This document shows, piece after piece, positions 6,711 to 62,709 of a stretch of DNA of 64,000 nt. Below the pieces are notes generated by a model. It did no database searches and was not told the DNA's origin. It worked only from the letters and a program-made list of their open reading frames with translations. How positions within the stretch are numbered: the stretch's first letter is position 1; the number at the start of each line of letters is the position of its first letter. The translations under genes and the position numbers were made by a program. Origin of the DNA: Erodium maritimum (taxonomy: Eukaryota > Streptophyta > Magnoliopsida > Geraniales > Geraniaceae); contig OY997589.1 of the NCBI GenBank assembly GCA_963921825.1, positions 72,400,523-72,464,522 of the forward strand. The letters are read 5' to 3'.

Positions 6711-7879
6711 AGCTTCCTACGTCTTTTTCAACTTTACCTTTTGCGCGTTGCAGACATTCAAATTTTGAGAGTGAGCTTAGTCGAGAGTGAAGTGAGAATC
6801 GAGCAAGTTGAGCTTCCTACGTCTTTTTCACCTTTACCTTTTGTGAGTTGCGGACATTCATATTTTGAGAGCGAATTGAGATGACAGTGAAGTGAGAATC
6901 AAGCAAGTTGAGCTTCCTACGTCTTTTTCACCTTTACCTTTTCCGAGTTGCGGACATCCGAATTCTGAAAGCGAGCTGAGAGTGAAATTGTCACGCCCCG
7001 AATTCGGCATGACCGAACCCGGAACGTGAACGGTGAAACAGTAAAACGATTTTCAAACATTTTAATAAACCTTTTTAAAACTACCACTTACGTTAATCAA
7101 AAAAATATTTTTAAAGCGGAAAATACGTTCAAAACAATGAACAACACGAGCTACAAGGTACGTCGCTAACTACCCAAAGACCCGGACTTCCGCTCCCAGC
7201 TCATCAAGCTTCGAGGGTTCTCCTAGTCCGCCTCACGACCAGTACCTGCAGGAAAAACAGCAGGGGGTGAGCACTTCGCTCACCGCCACGGATACCGGAT
7301 TGACCACGGCATACCCACAGAAATGCCGGGAACACCGACAACAACAACAACCCCGGGGACTACTACCCCAAAAACACAATTTAGACTGACGGTCACGCAA
7401 TACAACTGTTAAAAACTTCCCAACCATCTCAAAACCCGGACACGTAATGTAGACCCCAAATCAGAGACCGAACAACCATTCCATTAGTCACACCGACAAG
7501 GTAAAGCACAACCCTCACACGATCCTATATGCATTTACTTGTAACTTTCCGCAACCAAACCAGTATTCGCTACTCGTCTCTACCTCAGAGGCATGCGGTA
7601 AAAGTAGTAAAGGGGATGAGCGTTCCGCTCACCTCCACGGATACCCGTTCGATTATGGCATACTAGTAAAGCATCAATAACTACCTCAAAACCTGATACC
7701 AAACCGTCACAACTGCTCACGATATCAATACCTCAAATACTCGCTCACGTAAGGGAAACCTCGAATGGGGATCATATTCTCAACTAAGCAAAACACTATT
7801 GCTCACCATATCAACACCCCAATTACTCGATCACGTAGGGGAAACCTCAAAACGGGGATCATGTTCTCAATTAAGTAAA

Positions 7880-8110
7880 TCACTATTGCTCACAACATCA
7901 ATACCCCAACTACCCGATCACATAGGGGAAACCTCAAACAACCCACTCACGTGAGGGAAACCTCTAACCACCATTCACGTGAGGGAAACCTCAAACAACC
8001 CGTTCATGTGAGGGAAACCTCAAACAACCCGCTCACGTGAGGGAAACCTCAAACCACCCGTTCACGTGAGGGATACCTCGAACAACCCGTTCACGTAGGG
8101 GAAACCTAGT
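7880..8110. repeat. Tandem block of about 29-bp units inside element A
   Basis: A unit of the form CTCACGTGAGGGAAACCTCAA recurs about eight times with small variations. Each unit contains the palindrome CTCACGTGAG. The block is specific to element A among the copies in this window. Confidence 0.75.
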
Positions 8111-8339
8111 TTGTACTACGCCGCAGCGCATCAACCCTAACCCCTCTCCGTGTTGAGACCCTCACACAGAGGCGCTGTATCACCACCGTAGGTTATTGAT
8201 GAGTCTCGAACCCAAGACCTCACCCTTTAACACAGAACTTACGACCTTTGCAAACAAACACAAACGTGAACAAAGTCCCGCAATATCAACACACACAATG
8301 CACGCAAGATCACAAAGGATCAACACACATACTGCACAA

Positions 8340-8700
8340 CCACAAGCCTCAGCACTTTACCGATCGCGCGCCGGAAGGTACGACACACCTCACGGGGACC
8401 ACAGCCCTCGGCACTTTACCGATCGCGCATCGGAAGGTACGACACACCTCACAGGCATAACTCAAGCCTCAACACTTTACCAATCGCGCGCCGGAAGGTA
8501 CGACACACCTCACGGGGACCACAGCCCTCGGCACTTTACCGGTCGCGCATCAGAAGGTACGACACACCTCTCGGGCACAGCTCAAGCCTCAGCACTTTAC
8601 CAATCACGCGTCGGAAGGTACGACACACCTCACAAGGAACACAGCCCTCGGCACTTTACCGGTCGCGCATCGGAAGGTACGACACACCTCACGGGCACAA
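8340..8700. repeat. Tandem block of about 60-bp units inside element A
   Basis: About six units share CACTTTACC, a GATCGCGC core and GGAAGGTACGACACACCTCA. The spacing between CACTTTACC occurrences is close to 60 bp. Because 60 is a multiple of three, the array makes a long but meaningless open frame. Confidence 0.8.
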
Positions 8701-10905
8701 CTCATCCAGGTATCACCAGAACAATCACAATCACAACCAAATATCACACAATACTCCGCAAATAGCAAAATTAACATCACGACTAACTACCACTCAGCAA
8801 GTCAGTCAACAACAAACGGGTTCAATACCCCACAGGCACACATGGCCACACACAAACACAATCAGTTCACTTAACCTACGGGCTCAACCAGGTGCCCACA
8901 TGTGATTCCTATCGCACGGTAAGTTTACTTAACCTACAGCACCACCAAGTGCCACATGCATTTCTAATGTTCGATAAGTTCACTTATCCTACGACATCAC
9001 CAAGTGTCACATGCATTTCTACTAATAACTTTCCCTAGTCAAGGCCGATATTCGGCTACTTTTCCCTACCTCTTGAAGCATGTCAAACCCGAAGCTCGCG
9101 CTCCGGCAATGCTCCAGATTACCCGCTTAGCCTCCTCTTTCAACGGTCGGCGACACGGTCTACAACGATCACAATTAACACACTTTTTAAATAAGCAGGT
9201 GAAACCGAATTTAATGAAATTGACGCCCAAACGCAACCCCGACAATGCCGATCACTTCAAAACTTCCCAATTACTCGACATTGTCAACAATGGGCCCGGA
9301 CAGGCCCGGACAGGCCCGATTCGCCCGGCTCGGCGAATCTTCTTGGGATCGGTAAACGCCCTTCCGGGGCTCCGAAAATTCCCGTTTTTATTTCTACGAC
9401 CTTAAAATAATTTGCGTGTTCCAACGCAATCGACGGAACCAAATTCCGACGTCCGAGCGATTTATTTCGCGTTTAAAGTTTCTAAACCCGATAGTTCCGA
9501 TTTTCCCAATTTAATTCCATAATTTTATACGGGTTTAAATTATCGACTCGGGGATCGTCCAAGACCACATGAACTCGAAAAACCCGACACCCGAGCACGT
9601 GGGCCCCACCCGGCCACACCGGAAAATGCTCATTTTCGCCCCAAAACGTTCCTAACGACCTCTAAACCTCAACCGTTCATCATTTAATCAATTCTAAACG
9701 AACGCTTAGAAATCAAACACGTCGAAACGAGGAAAATTCGGGTTCTTACCGTAGGCAACGACAAGGGAGTGACGTTTACGCAAGAACAATCCCGATCCAA
9801 CGGTCGGATCGTCGTCGATCTTCAAAATTCTCACACTTTTTCTTATTTTCTCTCTTCTCCTTCTCTCTCTTCTTTCTCTCTCCCTTTCAGTCTTTTCTTT
9901 TCTGTTATGGCCGAAACACACTCCAACCTTTCCTTTTTTAATTTTTTTTAACAACACAATCAAACAAAAAGACCACATTACCCACCTTTTTCATTTTGTT
10001 TGTTCCTTAAAGTAAAGGGCACAATTGTAAACTCACTCCCAACCACCACTTTCATGACAAGTGTCATGTGGGTCCCACTAGTTTGAGAAATATCATTGTA
10101 GATATTTTTCAATCAGATTCGCGAAATTCGGCCGTTTCGGACGCCGTACGGGCCCATTTTCCAAGAATTTATGAAATTTACCATGCTACAAGGAAACGGT
10201 CCAACTAAGACCACTGTAACGACGGCTAAGCTTTTTGGATCCAAATCGGGCCTCGAACGGACCAAAATGTCTCTCGGTTGACTTTTTCGGCAAAAAGTCA
10301 ATTTTTCCCGAACTGGTCAAAAAGTTGCCCTGAGTCACCCAGAACTCACTTTGGCCGATATCGGGGTCAACTTAAGTCCGATATGACCCTAGGGGTCAAT
10401 TTTAGGTTCATCTAGGTGTGTGTCCCAAAATTTTAAATTTTTCCGTTTTTCCGCCGATTTGACCGGCGTTGACCGGGAGCGGTTCTTACAGAAATGAGAA
10501 TCGAGTGAGTAGAGCTTCCTACGTCTTTTTCACCTTTACCTTTTGCAAGTTGCGGACATTCAAATTCTGCGAGCGAGCTGAGCTGAGAGTGAAGTGAGAA
10601 TCGAGCGAGTTGAGCTTCCTACGTCTTTTTCACCTTGAACTTTTGCAAGTTGCGGACATTCGAATTCTGAGAGTGAAGTGAGAATGGAGCGAGTTGAGTT
10701 TCCTACGTCTTTTTCACCTTTACCTTTTGCAAATTGCGTACATTCGAATTCTGATAGCGAGCTGAGCTGAGAGTGAAGTGAGAATCGATCGAGTTGAGCT
10801 TCCTACGTCTTTTTCACCTTTACCTTTTCCTAGTTGCGGAAATTCAAAGTATGCGAGCGAGCTTGAGCTAAGAGTAAATGAGAATCGAGCGAGTTGACCT
10901 TCTTT

Positions 10906-11228
10906 CTTCGTTGAAGAGCAATTCCGACGCGGCCTGCCATATGGATGGGAAATTCAAAAGTTTAGTAAAATTATATCTTGAGCTTGAAGGCTCTAATATT
11001 CCATTGCTTAAAATTATTTAGGATGTATATGTTAATTTGTAAGTGAATGAAAAGTACTGAGTGTCATGTAGGCCCTAAATTTTATGTTAGTGTAGGGTTT
11101 TGAAGAATTTGATGTTCTGAATCATTTGAGTTTTGTGTGTGATGGTATCACGAAGTATTTGTTGATTATAATTTCTTGGAGCGTTGATTCGTTCATGAAA
11201 CCAAGTTGAAAACAAATACTTCAAACTT
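10906..11228. other. Intergenic DNA, no gene seen
   Basis: AT-rich DNA between the tandem array and the poly-T end of a minus-strand LINE fragment. No ORF or recognisable element is seen. Confidence 0.4.
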
Positions 11229-13143: not shown

Positions 13144-13149
13144 AAAAAA

Positions 13150-18081: not shown

Positions 18082-20608
18082 TCATCTCTTTCTGCCCCCA
18101 CGCTCTCTTAAAGAAAGAGAGAGTGTATCTCCTGGTCCAACATTATAATATGCAAGTGTAATATTGTCCTTGAGAAAACCAGCCTTTCCACTCAACTTCT
18201 GTTTATTTGCAGGAAGTTGGATCTCTCCCGCAATTTTCTCCTTCAGACTGCCTACAGTTTCTGATAAAGACTGCACAGTAATCTCCAAATGCTGGCCTTT
18301 AAGATTTCCTTCATCAACATTTGGAACGGATATCGTAATACGAACAGGTCCCTACAAAAAGAAAATGAATGAAATTGGATTAGTAAAGTTCTGCATATAT
18401 TTAAGTAATATGAAAAAAAAAATCAAACATGTAAAACATTAGCAGCTAAAAGGAGGCAAAGACGGGGAGAACACATACTGGATGTTGTGCCAAAAACTTG
18501 TCTTCGGGAACAAGCAGAGAATCATCAAGCTTTTGCCTCTTTGGCTCAGGTTCCTCCGGCAGAGGTGGAAGAGCGTCCTCAGGTGGCGGAGGAGGCGGTA
18601 TTCCTTGTGGCAAAGGTGGCGGTAGCATCATGGGCATGGGCATGGGCATGGCAGGCGGCGGGACAGGAAGAGGAACATAATGCCTGGGAACGGGCATAGG
18701 CGGATATTGTGATCCAGGGGGTGGTGGAATACCGGATGCATTCACAGACATTGATTGTGGCATCATTGGTGGTCGATTCATCATAGTAGGTTGCTGCCCA
18801 GAAGTCATTGCCATTGGAGGTGGTGGTGGCCGAACTGAAGACATCATTTGCATTGTTGGTGGCCTTGGTTGGGGTACAGGGAGCCCACCTGGAGCTGAAT
18901 ATTGGACGGTGTTCATGGGTACACGAGGCATATTCAAGGCCAGCCCAGGGGGTGGTGGAAGAGGACGGAGAGTAGGCAAACCAGGTCTGGGAGGAGCTGC
19001 TACAGGCCCAGGCAGAGTTGCAGTATCAATCTGATCCTCTCCATTGATATTCTGAGACATGGCCTGATTAGCCGTACGCCCTATGCTTCCAGTGTGACCA
19101 TCCCATATGACCTGCTTAGGTTGCTCGTCCTTCTTCTCTATCTCAGCCATCACTGCATTAGAAACTTCCTCCTCAGTAGTACCGAAAATATCAGGACGTG
19201 TTCGTGCAAGTCCCACAATGTTTCTGGAAATTTCATCATCCTGAGCAAGAGTTGTCTCCCGGATCTTGGCAAACATTCTTTCTTTTTGTTCCTTGTATTT
19301 AGGATCAATAAGGGAAATCCTCATGTGTTCAGACATCTCATTAATGGGAATTAGCTCACCAGTTATCGGAGAAATCACAACCTTAGTCTGGTCTCTTTCT
19401 ATTTGCATTCTCTCCTCGGGTCTCTTCCAATTCTTGACAATTCTCATTGGTGCTTCAGGTTCCTCGGCTGCCCTTGTGTCATTATGCTTTGCATCACCAT
19501 TCTCTTCAAGGCTAGCCACCCTCATACCTTCTTCAACAAGCTGTATCTCTTCTTCATCCATATCCATTTCTACCTCCTTCCCAGGCTCAACAATCTCATC
19601 TTCTTCCATACCAGACACCTTACTCCTCCTAATAACCTCTTCAAGAGTCATTGGAGGCGGCAACTCATCATCCTCATCATCTGCAAAGTCAATAGACTCG
19701 ACTACAACAAAATCATGCCAATCAATCATAGCCATTTGCATACGTTCCTGTTCAATCTCATCCTCAGCTTTCTGCCTTGCCTGCTCTTGTGAGCGTTCCC
19801 ACTCTAAACGATGCAAGCAACGCTCAAGCACAGTAGTCATGTCCACAACACTCTTCTTCAGCTTCTCAGTCAACCCTTTGGGGGGCATCAGCACCTTCGA
19901 ATATGCATCAGCGAGAGCAGTGAAAAACATGAACATGCTATGAGTCGGCTTCAAGAAGTGGAATTGAGGATTGTTCATCTCCCTACTGGTCAGTCCGGTC
20001 AAGAATGACTTACCATTACGAGCAACAAACTGGGCAGTGTGCTTAATGATATCCAGCTCTTCCCCTGTGATGCCTTCAGGAAGTCTAACAGTATATTGTT
20101 CAACCTCGGGAGGTTCAAGTACTTTCTGCACCGGTCTAAATTGGGCTGAGGGATCAGGCTTTGCTGTTTCATTACCATCAAGAGCTGAAGATGGGTCTGA
20201 ATCAGGTACAGCAGCATCTGTAGGTGTAGGAGGAGGCTGCTGGCCAGAGGTTTGATTCTGAGCCCGAAACTCAGCCAACCGGTGCTGGTAATATGCATGA
20301 TATGGATCCGATGCAATTAAAAAGTTGAACTTCACATTGCCAGCATAATTCGCAACAACCCTCCTTTCAAATTCAGGCCCATTCTTCGAAACAAACTGTG
20401 CAGTTTTGTCTACAACAGATCTAATATCTGGTGGAGGGTAAATGATTCCTATAGTTCTAGTGTGGGTTGCAACGGGCGCAGGAGGTAGATTAACATCTTT
20501 CAGCTCTTCGTTGTTCTGTTGCTCTGTCACCTGAGATGGTGGAAGAGGACCGAGATTTCCATCAGCAGGAGGTGCAGGTAGAGGCAAGATAGGCAATGAA
20601 CCCAGCAT
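18082..20608 (-). CDS. SF3A1: Splicing factor 3A subunit 1 (SF3a120 / PRP21 homologue), complete
   Basis: SF3A1 is a nuclear subunit of the SF3a complex of the U2 snRNP, needed for prespliceosome assembly at the branch site. The first ATG (20608-20606) gives MLGSLPILPLPAPPADGN, matching the usual plant N-terminus. Exon 1 is 18479-20608 (710 codons). A GT-AG intron covers 18352-18478 in phase 0. Exon 2 is 18082-18351, giving 799 residues, close to the roughly 785 of Arabidopsis. SURP1 lies at about 63-105 and SURP2 at about 185-228. A charged helical PRP21-type region covers about 250-310, acidic stretches follow, and a Pro/Met-rich low-complexity region precedes the C-terminus. The ubiquitin-like domain is encoded by exon 2 (about 711-799) and ends RERGGRKR; in the human protein the same RGG-type tail contacts U1 snRNA. 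No damage is seen. Confidence 0.97.
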
Positions 20609-20702
20609 TGTCCAGATAACAAAACCAGTATATTTAGGAATCAACAAGACTTCACCCCCGAAAAGAAGTGTCCGATAGACCAGTTCAACGATGAACCATT
20701 AC
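20609..20702 (-). other. SF3A1: 5'UTR part of SF3A1 coding exon
   Basis: The acceptor TTGTATGCAG ends at 20703, so the coding exon begins at 20702 with 94 bases of leader before the ATG. Open frame continues upstream of the ATG but has no ATG of its own. Confidence 0.7.
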
Positions 20703-21846: not shown

Positions 21847-23265
21847 TATTCCTTAATGCCCGTAGTTCAATCCTAAATGTCCAAATGTATATATCATCGT
21901 TAGCAATAAAATTAAAGCAGCTTTATATTACTTATGTGTTGGAGTAATATATCGATGTGTGCTCTGATCTATGCCCACAATGCGAATAGAACCATAGATC
22001 GAGATAGATCACACTCGATGGGTCCCTAGTCAACAAAGCTTCACTAGAAGCGACTAGTATGAAATATGACTCTTTATGGCTTACGTTCTGTTAGTCATTG
22101 GAATGGGATTCTGGAGTCTAATCATAGATATCATGTGGGACATGATATTGGACGACCAGGCATGAATATGTGCCATAAATCAAGTCATGAACATATTCAT
22201 TGTCGTAGCTTGTCATGTATCCTTAGACCAAGGAGTCTTTGTGATCGCTATGCAGTAAACAACTGAGTTTGACCTGAGCCTAACGTTGTCCGTAACAGGG
22301 TTTCCATAACGGCCAGGATTGGCTTGGGGACGGACTGCATGAGTGACACGAAATACGACTAAGGGTTTTATCCCTCCTACTACGATATGGGAAAGATATC
22401 GGTTCTCGGCCGCTTGATCGAGAGTGACTGAAAGAATAGCATGGCCATGCACATGATACTGGGTATCATATATTCAGTCATCTCACATATCAAGGAACAG
22501 TGATTAAGAATAATAAGGATGACGGCTCTATGCCTTATCTCAATCAGGATATCGGAGATAAAAGGATAATGACAGGGACGACAGAAAGGTTAGAATCGAC
22601 AGGGTCGATTCGTTATGCAGTGTCATGCAATACTAAAGTCTCGTTAGTTGCCACTTAAATAGGATCAAGTAAAATGGGTTTTTTTTCGTTGATCTATTGA
22701 CATGCATAAACCTAAGGGCCACACCGGAGGGTGAAACTCATTGACACATTTATGGAGACTGGCCAAAAAGGAGTTGTCTCGGGACATGACCAAAACTGGG
22801 TTTTGGGTCATGTGCCCGTATGTGAATAGGACTTTACGGATCAAGACAAGGCTTGGAGTCTTGGATTGATCGCGTTGGATAATGTTGGACATTTCCGGTA
22901 TGGAAAGCTTGGAGGCGATGAGCGAATCACGGGACCTCGTTGGAAATGGCCACGGGCCATGTTCCAAGAGGCCCATGAAAGGCCCATGGAACTAATTAAT
23001 CAATCTCCCACCTCATTTTGGTGTTCTTGAGTCCTCAAAAAGAAGAACTACGTGGCTTTGATACACATGTGGATACGTAGGCGTCTTGGAGACTCAAGTC
23101 AATCATTCGTTAACCGGTGTTCTTGTTTTGGTAAGAAATAGTGCTGAATATTTCTCTTGTGAATCCATTCTTTGTTAGTTGTTTCATGGTTTTAATCGTC
23201 TCTTGGTTTTCATTGATTTTCCGTTGCGGGTTGGTTCATCTCCAACCCTACCTCAAGACCCAACA
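21847..23265 (+). repeat. 5' LTR of the copia element
   Basis: From CCTTAATGCCCGTAG to ...GACCCAACA it aligns with 34811-36476. It is about 250 bp shorter than the 3' LTR because the segment after CATGGAACTAATTAATCAA is absent here. The primer site starts two bases after it. Confidence 0.88.
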
Positions 23266-28399: not shown

Positions 28400-29416
28400 T
28401 GTCACGCCCCAATTTCAGAGAACCGAACTCGGGACGCGAACATTTAAAACACAAAACACTTGAAACCTGTTTTGAATAAAAACTCTGATATTTCCATTTA
28501 GTTATCAAAAATAAAAGTATTTACAGTACAAAAGAACGTTCCAACAGTGGACAAGGTACAATATCTGTCACTAGACTCAACAAAATAAAGACCAGACTCC
28601 GCTCCAAGCTCCAAGAACTTCAAGAGCTAACCTAGTCCGTCCGGTGATCAGTACCTGTAGGAAAAGCAGCTAGGGGTGAGCGTTCGCTCACCACCACGGA
28701 TAACAGACTGACTATGGCATAATTAGAAGATAAAGCCAATAACACTAAAACCAAACCCAATACCGGGACTACTGTCACGCCCCAAATCCGGTTCTTGCCC
28801 GGACTCGAGGCATGACTAGTAAGATATGAATAAAAGAGATAACAATTCGACAATAGGTTCACGAGAACTCCAAAAAGTAACTCAATCCATAAAATTCGGT
28901 GCAAAAGTAAGTAACCCTCTAGGGGTGTAATGATAAACTTCTACAAAATCTGCTCTTAAACAAAAAGAAACGAAAGTGAAGTCTCTACTGACACCCACAC
29001 CGAGAAGCTCCCGAGCCTCTACTCCTCAATCAAACCTGTAAACACAACAATGAACTCACAGGGGTGAGCTTACGCTCAGTAGGGAAAACACAAAACAGGG
29101 TAAACCTTAACTCCAACAAGATCAACCATAAAGTCAACAAAATATAACTTAACAAACCCGGGTAAAAAGTAAACTAGTCAATGCCGTGGCACATGAAGTC
29201 TCCACCCTCCGATCCACATGATGTGTCCTCTCGGATTTTCCCTCAAATCCAGAGGAGATGCATAACATTGAGGCGACCGGAAACAACTCTTCGGGGTGCT
29301 TATCGTCGGGATTCTCATAAACGTCTCCAAAGGATTTTATGTCCTTGGGAACCAAGGTATTACTCCCATAGGAAGCATACACTTGGGAAATTCACCAAAT
29401 AACCAATATATTATCC

Positions 29417-29510
29417 TACACCGGACTCCTCAACGGTGTAGGTATCATACCGTAACAACCATAATCCCGATCTCACCCTACACCGGACTCCTCGACGGTG
29501 TAGGTGCCGT
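29417..29510. repeat. 66-bp tandem duplication with hairpin CTACACCG...CGGTGTAG, in element C
   Basis: The hairpin starts at about 29417 and again at about 29483, each with 8-bp arms and a short loop. Each is followed by a CATACCGTA- or CGTACCGTA-type segment. Confidence 0.7.
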
Positions 29511-30429
29511 ACCGTATCAACCATGATCCAATCACAACTTAGTAACACGCTCAACCGAAACTCGACGCCATCCAATCCAACCACTACTAATCCACTAACA
29601 CACATAGCTCACGCATCACCAATTATCCATAGCACACAGCACACAAATCACTAAATCAGGTCACACCGATCACACAATTCCAACTTACCGTTCACTTACC
29701 AGTTTCGAACCACCGGGGCATCGATCACCTGATTGCACCGCTCGGTACAACCAGTCATACTCGATGCTCCAAACAACCATTCAAGTAAATCAAGTAATCA
29801 ATCGAATACAATCAACGAGCAAGTACGAGTTTAAACAACCAATCATAAAGCCTTCAAAAGAGCATTCAAACATGCAATTCCACTAGTTTCATTAGACTCT
29901 TTAGCCTATCCACTAAGCAATCAACAACCAAGCATGTGATCCTAACACGCAACTAATCCGAGGGCTTTGCCAAGGCTCCTCTACCAGACAATCATATCCC
30001 AAGTATTGAAAGAGAATTACACTAGTGATTGGCATCCTAATCGGTCACCACTAGACACTCCGGTTATTAGTAATTGAAAGACGATTAAGCTAGTTATTCG
30101 CATCCTATATGCATTTCTAGGACCTTGTCCAATTTTATTAACCTAGCATGCATACTAAACATCGTAAACGAGAGGTTAAGTCTTTCCCTACCTCAAGGTC
30201 CTCCTCTTCAACGCTTTGATGAAGTCCGGCGATCACCACGTCGCTCTTCCCTCGGGTCCCGGCGTGATCCTTGCTTCTCTAGCTCGATCCCCAAAGTCTT
30301 GGACACAAAGAAACGCTAATTAGACTCCACTTAAACAGCAAGAAAGATCCCCAAAACCCTTCCAAAGTTCAGCTCAAAACCAAGATGCAAAACCTTCGAA
30401 AAACCCCCAAGAAACCCGCACCCTGGTCT

Positions 30430-30563
30430 GTCACGGATCTGGTCACGGATCCGTGACGTTAACCCTCACGGTTACCGTCACGGAGCCGTGACGAGTGCCG
30501 TCACGGACTCCCTCACGGAGCCGTGACGTCACCCGTCACGGGATCCGTCACGGATCCGTGGCG
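30430..30563. repeat. Cluster of TCACGGATCCGTGA-type palindromes in element C
   Basis: About ten CACGG or CCGTG words alternate within 134 bp, several forming perfect palindromes such as TCACGGATCCGTGAC and ACGGAGCCGT variants. The whole block could form several stacked stems in single-stranded form. Confidence 0.8.
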
Positions 30564-31649
30564 CACCAGGGCAGTTTCGCCCTTCTTCAACCTCCAGCTC
30601 CAAAACTCCGAAAAACCACCTTCAAACCCAGAAATTTACCCCTTCCAACTTCCAAAATAGTCCAAATCCTTCAATACTCCTGTACCCATGGTAGGAATCA
30701 AAACACAAACAAGTTTCCAATGATTCATCAAATCAAACCCACTTCAAAATCTCCAACAACTATTGATTTCTCAACAAAAACTCAACAAAGCTTCTCATCA
30801 ACAACCTCTCCCACCATTTCTACTCAAACCCAACAACATCTAGCCATTTTCACCCAAAACCCAAGAAAATAGATGAAGAGAAATGAGGATTAGAGAGTTC
30901 CATTACCTCTAGGATGTTGAGATGAAGAAGGTGCTAGTGATTTTGAGGGTGGATGGCTAGAGGAAGACTTCAAATGGCTCCTTCTTCTTTGATTTTCCTT
31001 CAAGCTTCCATGGGAGCTCTTCTCCCTTGCTTCCTCTCCAAATTTCGGCTACACCAATGCAAATATGAATTGATTTTGATTCTCCAATCACATATAATAC
31101 CTAGATGTAGCAAAGACCTAAATGCCCTTGAGCTAGATTCCCTTGTAGTAGCTTTTGGGAAGGTAAAAGGGACTATGACTATCCCTTTTCTCTCTTTCAA
31201 CCAAAAGAAGACAAGTGTCCACCTAGGTCATTTAACTTTCCAAAATAATTTCCAGCACTTTTAAAATAACGCTTTAGTCGATAAAAAGTCTCGTTTTGAC
31301 CAAAATTGACTTTATCCACTATTATACTCAAACGAAAGGGTTTTCTCCCCTGAAGCCAACCGTGATAATGGCTAATTCGTTTGGGTTCCGGAAAAGTCCC
31401 GCGTGACTTCCGGAGTCACCGGTTCGACCGGAAGCGGGTCTTACAACTACAGTCTCCAACTCAAGTACCCAACTGACCCACAACCCGTTACTTTCCTCAA
31501 CAGACTCAACACTCGATAAAGTAATGTAGACCCGACACAACTATCGACGACCTCCTCCAAGGACACGACAAAGGGACTACACAACGCCAAACAAGATCAC
31601 AAAGGATCGCACACCAGCTGCTCAGTAATCAATCTCAATCAGGTCCAGG

Positions 31650-31866
31650 ATCGACCTATCGCAATTCCTCGACACGAAGTCGGATCAGGCTGTCGACCTA
31701 TCGCAATTCATCGACACTAAGTCGGATCAGGCTGTCGACCTATCGCAATTCATCGACACTAAGTCGGATCAGGCTGTCGACCTATCGCAATTCATCGACA
31801 CTAAGTCGGATCAGGCTGTCGACCTATCGCAATTCATCGACACTAAGTCGGATCAGGCTGTCGACC
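31650..31866. repeat. 42-bp tandem repeat, about five copies, in element B
   Basis: The unit contains GTCGACCTATCGCAATTCAT and ACACTAAGTCGGATCAGGCT. The period is exactly 42 bp and the units are nearly identical, so the amplification is recent. Confidence 0.85.
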
Positions 31867-31919
31867 TTCCGAACTCACAAATTCAGGTAACCACAATCAC
31901 AATCACAGGCAAGTTCAAT

Positions 31920-32290
31920 CACACAGGCACTCAAGGCCACTCAAGACACCTCAACAGTCAAGACTCGGGTTCAACAACCCCACGGGCACTCACTGCCACT
32001 CAAGACACACCAACGGTCAAGACTCGGGTTCAACAACCCGCGGGCACTCACGGCCACTCAAGACACACCAACGGTCAAACTCGGGTTCAACGACCCCACG
32101 GCACTCACGGCCACCCCAAAACACCAACAGTAAAACACGGGCACTCATGGCCACCCAAGACACCAATTTAAATACACGGGCTCTCATGGCCACCCAAGAC
32201 ACCAACAATCAAATACGGGCTCTCATGGCCACCCAAGACACCAACAATCAAATACGGGCTCTCATGGCCACCCAAGACATAAATTAAACA
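31920..32290. repeat. Family tandem-repeat block in element B, about seven copies
   Basis: Units carry GGGCACTCACGGCCAC and CAAGACACACCAAC, several with GGGTTCAACAACCC. This is the reverse complement of the block in elements D and F, which fits the opposite orientation of those copies. Confidence 0.8.
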
Positions 32291-34025
32291 GTCAACCTCC
32301 GGGCATGGTCATATGCCTCCAGTAATTCTAATATCGCTAAGTTCTCTGTTCCTACGACAGTACTAAGTGTCACATGCTTTTCTCTTAAACTCTACAATCC
32401 CGTATCATGCTTTTCTAATATTTAAATAAATCTACTCAACCCACGACACCCCGATGTCACATGCAATTCTACTGGTAACTTTCCCTAATCAGGGTCGAGA
32501 TCCGGCTACTTTTCCCTACCTTGTATATAACTCCAAAAGCGCTCCACTAAACCCCGATGTAATCCCAGTCAATCGCCGAGCTTCCCTTTGCCTCGGTCCG
32601 CAGCACGATCTAAAAGAACACAATTTTAACTCACTTTTAAACTAGTACGAATAAACCGAAAGTCAATAAACTTAACGCCCAAACGTAACCCCGACAATGT
32701 CGATCACTCCCAAACTTCCCAATTACTCGACATTGTCGATAAAAGACCCGTAAAGGCTCGATTCGCCCGACATGGCGAATCTGCCCGGGTTTTGTAATTT
32801 GCCTTCCGGGGCTCCAAAAATTCCCGTTTTCGTTTCTACGGTCTTAGAATAATTCAAGGAACCCAACGCACTTGACGGAATCGAATTCCGACTTCTAAGT
32901 CAATTAATTAACGTTTAAAGTTTCTAAAACCCGTTAATTACAACTTTTCCAATTTAATTCCAATTTTCGATTCGGTTTAGGATAAATGGTCCGGGGAACG
33001 TTTTAAACCACCCGAACGTTAAAACCCGAGCACCCGAGCACGTGGGCCCCACACAAAGCATTGGGCCGTGGTCCCTAGGGTTTCAAGGGGCTCAGCCACC
33101 ATGGTGGTGGCCGGCCCTAGGTCCGGCTAGCCACCTCCTATGGTGGCCGGCCACCACCTAAGGTGGCCGGTGCTCCTCCCGAGCTCTCGGTCGCCGGAAA
33201 ACGTTTAAATAAACCTCCAAACACCTCTAAAACGTCTCCCAGAAACCCCAAAAATCACTACAACCCTAACTCATCATTTATAACGAAACCCTAGCTTTTG
33301 AAAATAAACGAAACGAGAATCGATTCGGTGCTTACTCAAGAGGAAGACGAGGGGAAGATAAATGCTCTTCGTCTTGAAACGATTCAAGGGCTAGATTCCT
33401 TCCAACTCCAACTCTTTTCTCCTTCTCTCTTCTTCTTCTTCTCCTTCTCTCTCTAAACTCTCTCTTCTCTTTCTAATTTAATCAACTAACTCATTTTTCC
33501 TTTTTTTTTCTTTTTAAACATGTGTGGCCGGCCACCTATGGCACACCACACCTTTTCCCCCCAAAACTAACACCACCATAATTAGGACAAGTGTCAAGGT
33601 GGGTCCCACACCTTTTGGAAAATATCTACTTGATATGTTCCAATCAGATTCGCGAAAAACGGACGTTTCAGGGCCCGAACGGGCACTTTTCCCAAGAAAT
33701 TACGAAACTTGACGTGCTACAAGGAAACGGCTCAACTAAGACCGCTGCGACGACGGCTAAGCCTTTTGGATCCCAAACGGTCCTCGAATGGACCAAAACG
33801 TCGCTCGGTTGACTTTTCCAGCGAAAAGTCAACATTTCCCAAATTAATCAGAAAGTTTCCCTGAGTCCCCTGGAACTCATTTTGGTCGATAACGGGGTCA
33901 TCTTAAGTCTAGTATGACCCTCGGGGTCAATTTAGGTTAAGTTTAGTGTCTGTCTTAAAATTTTTAAATTTTCCTGTTTTTCGCAGGTTTGACTATTGTT
34001 GAACGGGAGTGGTTCTTACAGTATC

Positions 34026-40593: not shown

Positions 40594-42379
40594 TGTAATA
40601 ACCACTTCTGGTCAACGCCAGTCAAATCTGCGAAAAACAGGAAAATTTAAAAATTTTAAGACAGACACTTAAATGAACCCAAATACGACCCCGAGGGTCA
40701 TACCGGACATAAGTTGACCCCGATATCGACCAAAGTGAGTTCCGGGGGACTCAGGGCAACTTTCTGATCAATTTGGGAAACGTTGACTTTTCGCTGGAAA
40801 AGTCAACCGAGCGACGTTTTGGTCCATTCGAGGACCGTTTTGGATCCAAAAAGCTTAGCCGTCGTCGCAGCGGTCTTAGTTGAGCCGTTTCCTTCTATCC
40901 CGTGAAGTTTCGTAATTTCTTGGAAAAAGTGCCCGTTCGGGGCCCGAGACGGCCGAATTTCGCGAATCTGATTGAAAAATATCTACCAAGATATTTTTCT
41001 AACACACGGGACCCACAAAGACACGTGTCATGAATATGGTGGTGGTTGGTTTTTAAATTAAAGAAAAAGGTAATATGAGTGTTAGTTTGGTAATTAAATG
41101 GTTTGGTTGGTTTTTGAACTAATAAAAGAGTTGTGGCAGAGAGTGTGTTCGGCTAAGTGTGAAAGAAAGGGGTTTTTGGAGAGAGAAAATAGAGAGAGAA
41201 GGAGAAGGAGAAGGAGAAGAAGAGAGAAAGAGAAGGGGGTGTTTGGAGTTGTGACGTTTCTCGATCATCAAGCCGTTGGATCGTCTCAACGAAAGAAGAT
41301 TCAAGCTCACACCGTCATTCTCTACGGTGAGCACCTAACCGATTTTTGTTTTGGAACGTTTAAATTTTAGGGTTTGAGTTTAAACGATTCAAATATGGTT
41401 GGGGTTTGGTTAGAATTGGTTTAAAGATGAATGGTTGAGGTTGGGGGTTCGTTAGGAACGTTTTGGGGCGAAAAGGAAATTTTCCCATATGGTCGTGTGG
41501 GGCCCACTTGCCCGGGCCTCGGGTTTTTCGTGTTCGGGTGGGTTTGGACGATCCCCGAATCGATAATTCACACCCGGAACAAATTATGGAATTAAATTGT
41601 GAAAGTTGGAATTTACGGGTTTAGAAACTTTAAACGCTAATTAAATGACTCGGAAGTCGGAATTCGATTCCGTCGAGTGCCTAGGAACCCTTGAATTATT
41701 CTAAGACCGTAGAAACGAAAACGGGAATTTTCGGAGCCCCGGAAGGGCGTTTTCAAAACCCGGGCAGATTCGCCATGTCGGGCGAATCGGGCCTTTCGGG
41801 GTCCAATATCGACAATGTCGAGTAATTGGGAAGTTTGGGAGTGATCGACATTGTCGGGGTTACGTTTGGGCGTCAAGTTTATTGAATTTCAGTTTATTTC
41901 TGCGAGTTTAAAGTGCCTTAAAATTGTGTTCTTTTAGATCATGCCGCGGACCGAGGCAAGGGAAAGCTAGGCGAGTGACTGAGATCACGTCGGAGCTTGT
42001 TGGTTAGCTTTCGGAGAACACGCACGACGTAGGGAAAAGTAGCCGGATCTCGGCCCTGACTAGGGAAAGTTAACAGTAGAATTGCATGTGACACCGGGGT
42101 GTCGTGGGTTAAGTAAGTTATCGAATATTAGAAAGGCATGATACGGGAACGTAGCGAATATTGGAAATGCATGTGACACTTAGTAGTGTCGTAGTAGCAG
42201 AGAACTTAGCGTTATTAGAATTACTGGAGGCATATGACCATGCCCGGAGGTTGATTGCGAACTTATCGAGATTAGGAGTACTGGAGGCATATGACCATGC
42301 CCGGAGGTTGATTGTGAAACTGTTGATATTAGGACTGTTGGAGGCATTGGTTATGCCGGAGGTTGATTGTGTATTTTTT

Positions 42380-43345
42380 TGTGTCTTGGGTGGCCATGAG
42401 AGCCCGTATTTTTACTGTTGTGTCTTGGGTGGCCATGAGAGCCCGTACTTTACTGTTGTGTCTTGGGTGGCCATGAGTGCCCGCGGGGTTGTTGAACCCG
42501 TGTCTTTACTGTTGGTGTGCCTTGGGAGGCCGTGAGTGTTTGTGGGGTTGTTGAACCCGTGTTTTACTGTTGGTGTCTTGGGAGGCCGTGAGTGCCTGTG
42601 GGGTTGTTGAACCCGTGTCTTTACTGTTGGCGTGTCTTGGAAGGCCGTGAGTACCTGTGGGGTTGTTGAGCCCGTGAGTTACTGTTGGTGTGTCTTGGGT
42701 GGCCGTGAGTGCTTGTGGGGTTGTTGAGCCCGTGAGTTACTTTTGGTGTGTCTTGGTGGCCATGAGTGCCCGTGGGGTTGTTGAGCCCGTGAGTTACTGT
42801 TGGTGTGTCTTGGGTGGCCGTGAGTGCCCGTGGGGTTGTTGAGCCCGTGAGTTACTTTTGGTGTGTCTTGGTGGCCATGAGTGCCCGTGGGGTTGTTGAG
42901 CCCGTGAGTTACTGTTGGTGTGTCTTGGGTGGCCATGAGTGCCCGTGGGGTTGTTGAGCCCGTGAGTTACTGTTGGTGTGTCTTGGGTGGCCATGAGTGC
43001 CCGTGGGGTTGTTGAGCCCATGAGTTACTGTTGGTGTGTCTTGGGTGGCCATGAGTGCCCGTGGGGTTGTTGAGCCCGTGAGTTACTGTTGGTGTGTCTT
43101 GGGTGGCCATGAGTGCCCGTGGGGTTGTTGAGCCCGTGAGTTACTGTTGGTGTGTCTTGGGTGGCCATGAGTGCCCGTGGGGTTGTTGAGCCCGTGAGTT
43201 ACTGTTGGTGTGTCTTGGGTGGCCATGAGTGCCCGTGGGGTTGTTGAGCCCGTGAGTTATGGTTGGTGTGTCTTGGGAGGCCGTGAGTGCCCGTTGGGTT
43301 GTTGAGTCCGTGTTTTACTGTTAGTGTCTTGGGTGGCCATGAGTG
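42380..43345. repeat. 58-bp tandem repeat, about sixteen copies, in element D
   Basis: The unit contains TGTCTTGGGTGGCCATGAGT, GCCCGTGGGGTTGTTGA and GCCCGTGAGTTACTGTTGG. The period is 58 bp in the central, nearly identical copies; outer copies are shorter and more diverged. The hairpin-like pair GGGTTGTTGA...CCC is shared with the blocks of B and F. Confidence 0.88.
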
Positions 43346-43453
43346 CATGTGGAGTGTTGAACCTGTGTTGTTGCTGTTTGTTGAACTTTGCTTGTGATTG
43401 TGCTTGCCCGAGGTTAGTGACCCGACTGTGTGTCGGGAAGTGGTGTGGAAATT

Positions 43454-43641
43454 GGCTGGCCTGACCGAGTTCGAGTCTCGGGAGGTTGCGAGCGTTCTTT
43501 GGCTGGCCTGACCGAGTTCGAGTCTCGGGAGGTTGCGAGCATTCTTTGGCTGGCTTGACCGAGTTCGAGTCTCGGAAAGTTGCGAGCGCTCCTTGGCTAG
43601 CCTGACCGAGTTCGAGTCTCGGGAGGTTGTGAGCATTTGTA
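43454..43641. repeat. 47-bp tandem repeat, four copies, in element D
   Basis: The unit starts GGCTGGCCTGACCGAGTTCG and continues AGTCTCGGGAGGTTGCGAGC. Starts lie at 43454, 43501, 43548 and 43595, a constant 47-bp spacing. Confidence 0.9.
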
Positions 43642-44362
43642 GGCGATGAGAGGGCAGCTCCCCTTCCGACTAGCTATCGGAAAAGCAGCGCTGTATATAT
43701 CGCAAAAAGGTCGATCGCCTGGAGCCAGACAGGGATCGACAAAGCGCGTGGGGCAGGCTCGAGCCCAGCCGGTTAGCAACCGGCACTGAGCAGCTGACAG
43801 GAGTGCGATCCTTTGTGATCTTGTTTGGTGTGCGATCCTTTGTGATCTTGGGTGTTGCGTGGTGGTCTATCGTTTCTTTGGAGGAGGTCGTCAATCGTTG
43901 TGTCGGGTCTACTTGACGTGTCCGGTGTTGAGTCGGCTGAGGAAAGTATCAGTGTGTGGGTGTCGGTCGGGTTACTTGAGTTTGGGGATAGTGATCCCCG
44001 GCGTTGAGTTGGTTGTTGGTGTTACCGACATTGTCTGATAATTATGCCGTAGTCAGTCTGTTATCCGTGGTGGTGAGCGAACGCTCACCCCTAGCTGCTT
44101 TTCCTACAGGTACCGGTCGCAGGTTGGACCAGGTGAGCTTCCGAAGCTTGAAGAGCTAGGAGCGGGATTCTGGGTTTATTTTGAGTCTAGCGACGGATAC
44201 CATGCCTCGTCCACTTGTTGGGACGTATTTTTAAGTTGTAAATATTATTATTTTTTTGAACAAATGGTGGTTTTAAAGTGATTTATGAAAAAGGTTTCAA
44301 AGTGTTTTATTATTTTGAATGTTCGCGTCCCGAGTTCGGTTTACTGAAATTGGGGCGTGACA

Positions 44363-48556: not shown

Positions 48557-50366
48557 TGTAATAACCACTCCCGGTCAACGTTAGTCAAACCTGCGAAAAA
48601 CAGGAAAATTTTAAAAAATTTCAAGACAGACACTGTTTTGAACCTAAAATTGACCCCGAGGGTCATACCGGACTTAAGATGACCCCGATATCGACCAATG
48701 TGAGTTCCGGGGGACTCAGGGAAACTTTCTGATCAATTTGGAAAATGTTGACTTTTCGTTCGAAAAGTCAACCGAGCGACGTTTTGGTCCATTCGAGGAC
48801 CGTTTTGGGTCCAAAAAGCATAGCCGTCGTCGCAGAGGTCTTAGTTGACCCGTTTCCTTGTAGCCCGTCAAGTTTCGCAATTTCTTGGAAAAAGTGCTGT
48901 TCGGGGCTCGAAACGTCCGATTTTCGCGAATCTGATTGAAAAATATCTTCTAGATATTGTTCCAAAAAGGTGTGGGACCCACCTTGCCACTTGTCAACCA
49001 AGTGGTGGTGTTAGGTTTTGGGGGGAAAATAAGGTAGAGAGATATAGGGGGGGTTCGGCCACTTTACAAAAAAAAGAGAAAAAATAGAAAGAAAAAGAAG
49101 AAGAAAGTTTAGAGAGAGAAGGAGAAGAGAGAAAAGAGAGAGAAGCTAGGGTTTGGGCCACTATTCACGTCATCTCCACCCTTGGATCGTCTCAAAGTGA
49201 ATAGATTCAAGCTCACCTCGTCTTCCTCTACGGTAATCACCAAACCGATCTTCGAATTGTCAATTTCTAAAATTAGGTTTTGGTTTGAAACTATTAGTTT
49301 AGGGTTGTATTGAGGTTGGGGGAGTGTTGGAGACGTTTTGGAGACGTTGGGAGGTGAAGGAGCACGTTTTCCGGTGACCGGGAGCTCAGGAGGAGCTCCG
49401 GCCACCATGTGAGGTGGCTGGCCGGAGCTAGGGCCGGCCACCACCATGGTGAGCCGAGACCAAAGGGCCCTAGCCACCCACGGCCATGGCTGGTCGGGTG
49501 GGGCCCACGTGCTCTGGTGCTCGGGTTTTATGTTCGGGTGGTTTAGAACGTTCCCCGGATCTTTAATCCACAACCGGATCGAAATTTGGAATTAAATTGG
49601 AAAAGTTGTAATTATCGGGTTTAGAAACTTTAAACGTTAATTAATTGACTCGGAAGTCGGAATTCGATTCCGTCGAGTGCCTAGAAACCCTTGAATTATT
49701 CTAAGACCATAGAAACGAAAACGGGAACTTTTGGAGCCCCGGAAGGGCATTTCCAAAACCCGGGCAGATTCGCCATGTCGGGCGAATCGGGCCTTTACGG
49801 GTCCTTTATCGAAAATGTCGAGTAATTGGGAAGTTTGGAAGTGATCGACATTGTCGGGGTTACGTTTGGGCGTTAAGTTTATTGACTTTCGGTTTATTCG
49901 TACTAGTTTAAAAGTGAGTTAAAATTGTGTTCTTTTAGATCGTGCTGCGGACCGAGGCAAAGGGAAGCTGGGTGAGTGACTGAATTCACACCGGAGCTCG
50001 TTGGTTGGCTTTTGGAGAACACGCACGAGGTAGGGAAAAGTAGTCGGATCTCGGCCCTGACTAGGGAAAGTTAACAGTAGAATTGCATGTGACACCGGGG
50101 TGTCGTGGGTTAAGTAGGTTATCGAATATTAGACATGCATGTGACACTTAGGGTGTCGTGGGTTAAGTAGGTTATCGAAGTTTAGAAAAGCATGTGACAC
50201 TTAGTAGTGTCGTAGGAGCAGAGAACTTAGCGATATTAGAATTACTGGAGGCATATGACTATGCCCGGAGGTTGATTGTGAACTTATCCATATTAGGACT
50301 ACTGGAGGCATATGACCATGCCCGGAGGTTGATTGTGAAACTGTTGATATTAGGACTGGAGGCATA
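48557..50366 (-). mobile_element. Element E: truncated copy of the solo-LTR-like family
   Basis: On the plus strand it begins TGTAATAACCACTCCCGG, as in D, and follows D and F closely through the stem-loops at 48747-48772 and about 49806-49858. It stops at GGAGGCAT near 50366, exactly where the tandem-repeat block starts in D and F. The remainder and the second target copy are missing. Noncoding. Confidence 0.82.
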
Positions 50367-57172: not shown

Positions 57173-57662
57173 CAATGTTGTAAAAATCCCCACCTGGAGG
57201 CGCCTAGGCCCCGCCTAGGCGTTGAAATGGGCTCTGCCGATCCGATTTATCCTCTTAGGGCGCTCCAGGCCGTTTGGGCGGAATATGACCAATTAATCCC
57301 TGATTTGGCCGATTAACCACCGTCTGGCCGATTAATTGAGTGGGTCGATCAGGCGTCGGGTCGGATTCGTAGTTAAAAAACAGTTTCTAACATTCTACAA
57401 ACCAAGTAAAACCATGAAATTATACTAGTTGATAGTCATACTTATTGATATTATTTTAAGAATTATATGATACTTTTATTTAGTATAATATTTATGTTTT
57501 TAATATATTTAATGTTCGATATTATTAATATTTTTTTATAGAATATAATATAAAATTTGATAATATATAATAAAAATAATAAAATAATAATCTGATTAAT
57601 CCCCACCTAATGCATAGGACCTATTCCTGCCCGACTAGTGCTTAACGTTTTTTACAACTTTG
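57173..57662. mobile_element. hAT-like MITE, second copy, in the gypsy-like relic
   Basis: The ends CAATGTTGTAAAAAT and the inward-read right end CAAAGTTGTAAAAAA agree at 13 of 15 bases. The flanks ATGTGAGG (57165-57172) and ATGTGGGG (57663-57670) are an 8-bp duplication with one change. At 490 bp with GGCGCCTAGGC, CCGATTAATC and an AT-rich centre, it is the same family as the element at 53974-54450. Confidence 0.72.
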
Positions 57663-59675
57663 ATGTGGGGTATAAGTTCTTACTTTTCTTGTATACTATC
57701 TATTTCATCTTCATGTAGTTTTGATGCTTTGAATTCTGTAGATGTAAAATAATAATTGTATATTTGTGGAAAGTACTTCACAAACTCTAGTTGAGCCAAA
57801 ACTTCTCATAGTATCCATAGAGTTGGTTGACATATATATTCGATATCCTAGGGGTACTATGGAAGATGCTCTCTCTAGAGAGGGGTTGTATTTGAATCTC
57901 CCATTGATTTTATTTTGCTAGACATCGAGCATGATGTTGAAATTCCCTTTAGTATGGGAGATTCCTTTTTAGATTCTATCAAATCAACTCTATATGTTCA
58001 ACACCTCTCATTGATTTTTAAATTCAATGTTGAGCATAGAGTTGTTAATATTAAGCATGAATTTGCTAATACATTTGCTAGACCCCATCACCCGTTTGTG
58101 AATTTTTACTCTATTGTTGTAGATGCTCTTGACCCTTGTTGTCATGAGCATTTTCCGCTTCATGGGATCATATCCCTATCAAGTTATGCCAAGATGAGAA
58201 AAATCATCATTATTCTGTGAAGGCAAGCTTGATGAAGTTAGCCTTGAGTTTGGAACTTTCACAAAACTCAGGGAAAAAAATATTGTGCTACATTGCGTTT
58301 CTTCTCTCATTTTTGCACTCACATTTAAAGAGAATGACACAATCGAAGTATGAGATTTGCGGGAGGCCTCTTGATTGAGCCTCCTACCGGTCGAGCAAAC
58401 GACGTTAAACAAATGCGCTTGTTGAGAGGCAACCCAATATTCCTACCCTTCGTTGTTTTGTATATGTTACGTCTTGCTCTTATTTTCTAACTATTTGTGC
58501 AAGTTGGTGATACAGAATGAAAGCTTGAGAATTATTCAAGAACAAGTAGCACCGATGAAGGGGAAATGTCTCTATCCCCCCTTTTATCATGTTTAATATC
58601 TACTTGTGAACTTTGATGTTATTCTGGTGGGTGCTGAGCACCCGACTTATGCTGATAGGTTATGCATCTTGGTTCTCTGAATTTCTTGATGGTTTAACAT
58701 AAGGTGGGGTTGTTACTTATGTGTTTTTAGGAGCATATGTGTTTACAGTCGCACTAAAGACAATGCTTAGTTTTAAAGTTTGGGGTGGGGTATGTCTTGC
58801 ATTTTATGTTTTCTTTTGTGTGCTCATGCATCATTTCGTGTTATAAATTTTATAAAAATCCAAAAAAAATGAAAATTTTGAAAAAGTAATTACAAAATTC
58901 TGGTGATTTGTTGAGTCTATTGTGTATGATATTAAGGTTTCAATGATTGAACTATTGTATATGCTTATTTCCTTGCATAAATCAAATTTGTATATGAACA
59001 TGAATGAATCTAATGAGTAGTGAAAGCACATGCATAAGAAATAGCTTTTCCACTTGCGTTGAGTGTTTTCTAAAAACTAGTGCGGTATTCCTTTGATTTC
59101 TATGCATGGTAAAATGAGTCTAGAACTACATGTATGACCCATTCGAGGTGTAAGAACCACTCCCGGTCAACGCCAGTCAAATCGGCGAAAAACTAGGAAA
59201 ATTTAAAAAATTTGGACAGATACTTAAATGAACCTAAATTTGACCCTGAGGGTCATACCGGACTTAAGTTGACCCCGCTATCGACCAAAGTGAGTTCCGA
59301 GGGACTCAGGGCAACTTTCTGACCAATTTGGGAAATGTTGACTTTTTGCTGGAAAAGTCAACCGAGCGACGTTTTGGTCCGTTCGAAGTCCGTTTTGGAT
59401 CCAAAAAGCTTAGCCGTCGCCACAGCGGTCTTAGTTGAGCCGTTTCCTTGTAGCTCGTGAAATTTCGTAATTTCTTGGAAAAAGTGCCCGTTCGGGGCCC
59501 GAGACGGCCGAATTTCGCGAATCTGATTGGAAAATAACTAGAAGATATTTTTCCAAAAGGGATGGGACCCACTTGCCACATGTCACCAATGTTGTGGTGT
59601 TAGGTTTATTGGACAAACAAAAGAAGACTACATGATGGTTAGTTTTGCAATTTAAGTGGTAGTTGTTATTTTTTG

Positions 59676-60100
59676 GGTAAACTTCATCTCACTACCCTAA
59701 AAAAACTTAAATTCCAACCCACTACTCTAACGAAACTTAGTTTCATCTCACTACCCTAACGAAACTTTTAGTGTCAATTTAATACCTACCGTTAATTTTC
59801 CATCCATTTTGGATGGAAAATGGTCACGTGCCTGGCACATGACCCCAATATTTTGAAAAATGACAACAATACCCCTAATCTCTTTTAATTTGTAGTCCCT
59901 TTTAATGTTTCCCTTTCTAACCTAATATTTTAAATTCTCATCTTCCCAAACATGTTCGTCCCCTTCATCTTCCCAGATCCTTGAAGCAGCTCCAAACCTC
60001 AAATCATTCCTTTAAACGATACCCCTTGAAATCCATTATCTTCGTTATGTTTATCCTTTATTACCAGTATACCCAATCCTTGAAACCACATCCTTCGTTC
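59676..60100. mobile_element. Small insertion in element F, unclassified
   Basis: Relative to D, element F has about 425 extra bases here. They start with CTTCATCTCACTACCCTAA, repeated in variants (CCCACTACTCTAACGAAACT, CTCACTACCCTAACGAAACT), followed by the palindrome TTTTCCATCCATTTTGGATG. Ends and target duplication were not resolved. Confidence 0.45.
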
Positions 60101-61384
60101 TATGTGGTGGCGGTGGGGTTCAAAAGGGAAAGCAAATGGAGTGTTCGGCCATAACACCAAAAAGGAGAAGAATATAGAGAGAGAAAGTGGAGAGAGGAAA
60201 GAGAAGGAGAAAGGGGAGAAAAAGAGAAGAAAGCTTGGACTTTTGTCGATTTCCCGACGATCCAACCAACGGATCGTCTCAACGACCGAAGAATCGAGTT
60301 CACACCGTCATTCCCTACGGTGAGCACCTAACCGATTTTCGTTTTGTTAAGTTTGAAAATTAGGGTTTGGGTTAAAACTAGTAGTTTCTGGATGAGTTGA
60401 GGTGTGGGGTTCGTTGGGGACGTTTTGGAGTGAAGATTGAACGTTTTCCGGTGACCAGAGGCTCGGGGGAGCTCCGGCCACCGTGCATGGTGGCTGGCCG
60501 GACCATGGGGTGGCTGGCCGGAGCTAGGACCGGCCACCACCATGGTGAACCGGCCCCAATTTAGCCCTAGCCACCCACGGCCAACGATGGCCGGGTGGGG
60601 CCCATATGCCCGGGTATTGGGTTCTCATGTTCGGGTGGTTTAGGACGATCCCCAAGTCGTTAATCCACACCCGGATCGAAATTTGGAATTAAATTGTGAA
60701 AGTTGAAATTGACGGGTTGAGAAACTTTAAACGCGAATTAAATTACTCGGAAGTCGGAATTTGATTCCGTCGAGTGCATAGGAACCCTTAAATTATTCTA
60801 AGACCGTAGAAACGAAAACGGGAATTTTCGGAGCCCCGGAAGGACGTTTTCCAATCCTGGGCAGATTCGCCGGGTCGGGAGAAACGGGCCTTTCCGGGTC
60901 CATTATCGACAATGTCGAGTAATTGGGAAGTTTGGGAGTGATCGACATTGTCGGGGTTACTTTTGGGCGTCAAGTTTATTAAAATTCAGTTTATGCCTAC
61001 AAGCTCAAAAGTGTTTTAAATTGTGTCCTTATTAGATCGTGCCGTCGACAGAGGAAAAGGGAAAGCTAGGCGAGTGATCGTGATCACGCCGGAGCTGGGT
61101 TGTGAGCTTTTGGAAAAGCATACGAGGTAGGGAAAAGTAGCCGGATCTCGGCCCTGACTAGGGAAAGTTAACAGTAGAAATGCATGTGACACTTGGGTGT
61201 CGTGGGTTAGGTAAGTTTATCGAATAATAGAAAGGCAGGCGACACCGGGTGGTGTCGTATGATACGGGAACGTATCGAACAATAGAAATGCATGTGACAC
61301 TTAGTAGTGTCGTAGGAGCAGTGAACTTATCGATATTAGAATTACTGGAGGCATTTGGTTATGCTCGGAGGTTGATTGTTTAGT

Positions 61385-61870
61385 TTGTGTCTTGGGTGGC
61401 CATGAGAGCCCGTACTTTACTGTTGTGTCTTGGGTGGCCATGAGAGCCGTACTTTACTATTGTGTCTTGGGTGGCCATGAGAGCCCGTACTTTACTATTG
61501 TGTCTTGGGTGGCCATGAGAGCCTGTACTTTACTGTTTGTGTCTTGGGTGGCCATGAGAGCCGTACTTTACTATTGTGTCTTGGGTGGCCATGAGAGCCC
61601 GTACTTTACTATTGTGTCTTGGGTGGCCATGAGAGCCTGTACTTTACTGTTTGTGTCTTGGGTGGCCATGAGAGCCCGTATTTTACTGTTGGTGTGTCTT
61701 GGGTGGCCATGAGTGCCCGTGGGGTTGTTAAACCCGTATTTTTACCGTTGGTGTCTTGGGTGGCCATGAGTGCCCGTGGGGTTGTTGAACCCGTGTTTTA
61801 CTGTTGGTGTCTTGGGTGGCCATGAGTGCCCGTGGGGTTGTTGAACCTGTGTTTTACCGTTGGTTTGGGT
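61385..61870. repeat. Family tandem-repeat block in element F, about twelve copies
   Basis: About eight short units of near 38 bp (CTTGGGTGGCCATGAGAGCC, CGTACTTTACT) are followed by three or four longer ones that add GCCCGTGGGGTTGTTGAACC. The short form also opens the block of D (GAGAGCCCGTA at about 42407-42450), which suggests an ancestral short-to-long order. Confidence 0.82.
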
Positions 61871-62709
61871 GGCCATGAGTGCATGTGAAGTGTTAAACCT
61901 GTGTTGTTGCTGTCGGTTGAAATTTGCTTGTGGTTGTGATTGTGGTTACCTGAGGTTGGGGGCCCGCCTTATAATAAAAGGGGTCCCGTGATCGCACGCG
62001 TATGCATGTTCAGACGAGGTAGGGGGGCCGCCTTAGAGTAAAAGGGTTCTGGCAACGCGTGCGTGGTGGTGACAGGTCGACCGCCTGATCCGACTACGTG
62101 TCGGGAAAAGTGCGACAGGTCGACCGCCTGATCCAACCGTCGTGTTGGGAAAAGTGCGTGGGGATGGAGCAGCTGGAGTGCGATCCTTTGTGATCTTGGG
62201 TGTTGCGTGGTTATCTTTCGTGTCTTTGGAGGAGGTCGTAATCGTTGTGTCGGGTCTACATTACGTGTCCGAGTGCTGAGTCGGTTGAGGAAAGTAATGG
62301 TCGCGTGTTAGTCGGGTTACTTGACTTGGGGGATAGTAGTCTCCGGTGTTGGGTTGTTGTAGGTGTTACCGACATTGTCTGCTAGTATGCCGTAGTCAGT
62401 CTGTTATCCGTGGTGGTGAGCGAACGCTCACCCCTAGCTGCTTTTGCTACAGGTACTGGTCGCGGGACGGTTTAGGTGAGCTCTCGAAGCTTGAAGAGCT
62501 AGGAGCGGGAGTCCGGGTTTCCCTTTTGAGTCTAGCGACGTACGCCTTGTATTTTGTCCGCTTGTTGGGACGTACTTTTGAGTTGTTAATTATTATTTTG
62601 ATTAACTAAATGGTGGTTCTAAAGTGATTTATTTAAAAGGTTTGGAAATGTTTTATTGTCTTAAACGTTCGCGTTCCGGGTTCGGTTCTACTGAATTTGG
62701 GGCGTGACA

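Follow-up and report, generated by a model that had tools for sequence, protein, structure and literature searches.

Copies of one LTR family in the window

The window is a 64,000-nucleotide stretch (C2:72400523-72464522) of the Erodium maritimum genome, which comprises 763 Mb in 40 contigs. An F-box-like frame is located at 3-731 (minus strand), and a 750-aa frame at 18449-20698 (minus strand) contains PRP21_like_P and two Surp modules and represents a splicing factor 3A subunit 1-like gene. A separate direct repeat is present at 21851-23265 and 34811-36476, the two units being 94-95% alike and ∼13 kb apart. Five further blocks, termed A, B, D, E and F, share one family and are 72-88% alike over the longer matches in a self-comparison of the window. 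TG...CA ends and perfect 5-bp duplications on both flanks, as claimed in a preliminary description of this DNA, can be read directly in A, B, D and F, and the chance of perfect duplications in four out of four is ∼1e-12. A TG...CA LTR with a 5-bp duplication was likewise found in element G, which is nested in B.

Blocks D and F are solo LTRs which, when compared with both LTR and internal sequences, match LTR sequence alone. D (40594..44362, plus strand) is flanked by the duplication CCTTC and is lengthened by a tandem array with a 57/58-bp unit at 42380-43440. Its TG...CA ends and duplication are as originally described, but its U3 end is TGTAATAACC, one base different from the TTCTTACA that had been given. 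Two tRNAs called by ARAGORN within D (at 43539 and 43741) lacked Rfam support and were taken as spurious; an Rfam scan of positions 28000-63000 of the window yielded no family at gathering score. F (59149..62709, plus strand) is flanked by CGAGG and has ∼500 bp near 59,620-60,130 that are extra relative to the other copies. E (48557..50279, plus strand) had been regarded as a truncated member and proved to be one: by end and LTR comparison it retains the U3 end only, the U5 part being absent.

Block B (28400..34020, minus strand; duplication GTATC) is a solo LTR of ∼2.94 kb without its insert. Its overall length of 5.6 kb is due to a second LTR nested inside it, G (28773..31445, minus strand; duplication ACTAC), which runs TGTAAGACCC...GGGGCGTGACA and belongs to a sister family. 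G is 83-89% identical to parts of two genome copies (L004 and L005) that are members of its LTR family, the U5 end of which is the same as that of the main family. The solo-LTR reading is right for the nested G too, and nested arrangements of one solo LTR in another are of a common kind. B itself sits in a Ty1/copia pol, which it splits into a part at 26474-28399 and a part from 34021 onwards, with Pfam matches to gag_pre-integrs and RVT_2 and, below cutoff, to rve. The RVT_2 match extends to ∼28382, at the left edge of B, and the frame to the right of B resembles, by eye, the continuation of it.

Strand of the LTR and its gene-carrying element

The direction of the LTR had been read on the wrong strand. 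It runs TGTAAGAACC...GGGGCGTGACA, with A and B on the minus strand and D, E and F on the plus strand, and this follows from the repeated neighbours of its flanks: among the fetched genome copies, some have the polypurine tract AAGGGGGTAGAT or close variants at the TGTAAGAACC side, and some have the primer site GCTTGGTATCAGAGC at the GGGGCGTGACA side. In complete copies the tract lies before the 3′ LTR, and the 5′ LTR is followed by a primer site of the initiator-Met type, TGGTATCAGAGC, which we take to be complementary to initiator Met tRNA. The junction of the LTR end with TGGTATCAGAGC has 5,766 exact matches in the genome and that of AAGGGGGTAG with TGTAAGAACC has 607, the control being 0 in each case. 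With the orientation reversed, the primer site would be sought on the wrong side, and the few genome matches to candidate primer sites on that strand (13 for TGGCGCC and 3 for TGGTATCAGAG) were rejected as misleading. The density of GGGGCGTGACA in the window is ordinary: there are 5 exact sites in 64 kb, where the genome mean predicts 2.7 (Poisson P 0.14).

The autonomous partner, the identity of which had been left as an open question, is an abundant element of the same genome, a Ty3/gypsy retrotransposon with the gene order protease, reverse transcriptase, RNase H and integrase. In a complete copy on C6, the interior between the LTRs L019 and L016 (L052; 4,575 bp) shows Pfam matches in the order RVP_2, RVT_1, RT_RNaseH and SH3_Tf2-1, which is the Ty3/gypsy order, although its frames are broken. 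Another copy (L025) has an uninterrupted 341-aa integrase C-terminal frame upstream of and beside its 3′ LTR, and among the pieces from tract-flanked copies SH3_Tf2-1 was matched above cutoff in L025 and L012, and rve below cutoff in L035. When the 341-aa piece of L025 was compared with the genome, 118 matches of 14,173 candidates were scored, of which 33 lie within a 1,676-aa frame (three of the 33 have one TAG in the matched span). The copies with this frame are 90-92% alike to the query and are known from the integrase match, not from their LTRs. Three matches fall in the part of C1 that the junction list covers, below 46 Mb; for two of them an exact U5 end of the subfamily, joined to the primer site, lies 4.5 and 6.2 kb upstream, and for the third none is listed.

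The lineage is probably the Del/Tekay chromoviruses of Ty3/gypsy, as judged from sequence likeness. The long LTRs and the Ty3-type pol order are both consistent with this assignment, as is the U5 end GGGGCGTGACA, which has GGG at −8 to −10 and so corresponds to the type A U5 att site (PMC4029996). Of the 10 positions of the U3 end TGTAAGAACC, 8 are shared with TGTAACACCC, which is given there as the most frequent form in maize and sorghum, and position 6 is G and not C; in the same account, bases 3, 6, 9 and 10 of the Del U3 att site are the most conserved, within genomes and not between them (PMC4029996). Pfam Chromo was matched in one of three C-terminal pieces (E 0.037; 14.4 bits versus a cutoff of 25.1), and the other two were without a match.

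Block A (6989..10490, minus strand), which is flanked by GAAAT at 6984-6988 and 10491-10495, is an internally deleted two-LTR element, as its middle corresponds, as far as the protease, to the interior of the C6 element. Its U3-side LTR part (8861..10490, minus strand) corresponds to LTR positions 1 to ∼1,680 by LTR comparison, A 1-449 and 875-1630 matching the LTRs of F, L016 and L025 at 76-84%. The U5-side LTR end (6989..7456, minus strand) is A 3035-3502, which matches the last ∼460 bp of the LTRs at ∼75%. Between these two partial LTRs lie ∼850 bp of internal sequence (7455..8303, minus strand), which come from the region between primer site and protease, reach the protease and are recognized by two matches to L052, with 80% DNA identity over 625 positions (8303-7680) and 85% over 124 (7578-7455). 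In addition, 7569-7456 has 74% amino acid identity over 38 aa to the protease-proximal frame in which Pfam RVP_2 was matched. Several earlier statements need to be qualified. That no coding domain is present in any copy does not apply to A with its internal and protease-proximal matches; that no two copies pair is correct between copies but not within A, which contains parts of two LTRs; and the solo-LTR reading applies to D, F and B but not to A. Element A demonstrates that a 5-bp duplication is by itself no proof of a solo LTR. The K2P of A to the other copies (0.39) was discarded because of the internal sequence that A contains. Tandem-repeated sequence surrounds A, with copies on both sides at 6689-6984 and 10491-10902.

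Solo and complete copies in the genome

A genome search with F, of the kind proposed in the preliminary description for sorting solo copies from those that flank pol, was carried out. The first look gave 18,396 candidates, and 30 loci of the 40 best-scoring F-like copies were fetched, a sample that includes F and was chosen by similarity to it. Both kinds were found. Eleven of the 30 are solo LTRs without tract or primer site, nine with a perfect 5-bp duplication (L009, L010, L011, L014, L017, L024, L027, L030 and L038) and two with a one-mismatch duplication (L023 and L029). Eight adjoin a polypurine tract (L012, L013, L019, L022, L025, L026, L032 and L035) and five a primer site (L016, L021, L034, L036 and L037). 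These 13 LTRs represent 11 elements, as they include two complete pairs: L016 and L019 on C6, with TTGGA on both flanks and an LTR K2P of 0.034, and L021 and L022 on C3, with CAAAC on both flanks and an LTR K2P of 0.043. In this F-chosen sample of 30 there are thus 11 solo LTRs and 11 complete elements. The remaining six (L015, L018, L020, L028, L031 and L033) fit no class; two are missing one half (U3 or U5), no matching duplication is present at L020 and L031, and L033 is partial. L018 (C2:60708222-60711349) has a 12-bp repeat, ttgtacatatta, on its flanks in place of a 5-bp duplication.

Solo and complete copies were also estimated from exact ends across the genome, assuming two LTRs per complete element; such counts include orphan ends and miss mutated primer sites. 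The subfamily has 11,934 exact U5 ends, followed by TTGGTATC in 2,488 and by TTGG in 2,699, and, independently, 3,999 exact U3 ends, of which 839 are preceded by GTAGAT. By these counts, each complete element is accompanied by at most 2.8 (TTGGTATC), 2.4 (TTGG) and 2.8 (U3 end) solo or orphan LTRs. For all GGGGCGTGACA ends, an 11-mer shared by several families, there are 32,118 matches (control 30) and the ratio is 3.6. A survey of fifteen plants gives the regression 2.69 + 0.00114x, with an intercept of 2.69 (PMC7251063). Compared with the solo LTRs of other plants, those described here have the same single LTR and 5-bp duplication, with a solo-to-complete ratio in the range of that regression (PMC7251063), and we see no essential difference.

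Origin of the window copies

We are highly confident that the blocks are the remains of a single abundant Ty3/gypsy lineage, probably Del/Tekay, the solo copies having arisen by LTR recombination and the truncated ones by illegitimate deletion. A full element would comprise a coding interior of ∼5 kb between LTRs of ∼3 kb. Reverse transcription of a complete copy would be primed at the initiator-Met-type site that directly follows the 5′ LTR, and its own integrase would insert the copy and thereby duplicate 5 bp of the target. The two LTRs of such a copy would then undergo homologous recombination, which would remove one LTR and the interior and leave the duplication in place, as proposed for B, D, F and G, and illegitimate deletion would yield the truncated A, which has lost most of its interior and portions of its two LTRs, and E.

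The preliminary description had offered an extreme solo-LTR ratio or a noncoding family moved in trans. LARDs consist of two LTRs around a noncoding interior, and a LARD-like family with these LTRs, moved by the proteins of a relative and supplying most copies, shares with the window blocks the large noncoding copies. It could also draw on the facts that interiors were read in a minority of copies, that the LTRs of the C3 pair are spaced 8.0 kb apart and that the pol of the C6 pair is broken. Nevertheless, such a family is very unlikely to be the main source, and it is not needed, as there are LTRs with a close match to F that border pol sequence. Seven of the eight tract-flanked copies were translated upstream and all seven have stop-to-stop frames of at least 85 aa that are pol-like by eye, three of them (L012, L025 and L035) with pieces that match integrase-type Pfam domains; the remaining one, L019, is an LTR of the C6 pair, which has pol domains. 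In the window, no two LTRs around a noncoding interior were found: the interior of A derives from a coding element, and B, D and F are single LTRs without an interior and so are silent on this point. An extreme excess of solo LTRs, brought about by LTR-LTR recombination of unusual strength in this genome, would account for three solo copies and a nested one in a window with no complete element, and for the all-family 11-mer ratio of up to 3.6 to 1. We consider it improbable to much the same degree, since the subfamily reaches at most 2.4-2.8 to 1, close to the 2.69 intercept of the published regression, 2.69 + 0.00114x (PMC7251063), and the F-chosen sample has equal numbers of both kinds. As for a DNA transposon that has TG...CA ends and duplicates 5 bp of its target, which several-kb noncoding copies in both orientations might suggest, it is hardly credible: at their U3 end copies adjoin a polypurine tract, and at their U5 end a tRNA primer site, the interior carries protease, reverse transcriptase, RNase H and integrase, and the reading was rejected once paired LTR copies sharing a duplication were found.

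An extension of the preferred recombination model, which we put forward tentatively and regard as rather unlikely, is that both reciprocal products of unequal crossing-over between LTRs have been kept in large numbers, namely solo LTRs and head-to-tail arrays of complete elements that share LTRs with a period of ∼8.3-8.7 kb. In tables inspected by eye, seven head-to-tail integrase pairs have a spacing of 8,313-8,487 bp, and a run of primer sites at C1:7108480, 7116995 and 7125510 has a spacing of 8,515 bp. Further head-to-tail runs of complete elements are at C1:14179811/14188259 and C1:31747667/31756413. Such runs may be the reciprocal product of unequal exchange, with which they would fit, or may result from segmental duplication. 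If the former were true, a single family would make it possible to measure how frequently sister copies undergo unequal exchange, apart from simple deletion within a copy.

The blocks of the window are mostly leftover end-repeats of an abundant, ordinary retrotransposon, the gene-carrying copies of which are located elsewhere in the genome. The finding is an ordinary one and can be explained without an extreme solo ratio and without a noncoding family moved in trans. It also illustrates a pitfall in the description of such families, in that an antisense reading of the LTR conceals the primer site and a coding family consequently seems orphaned.
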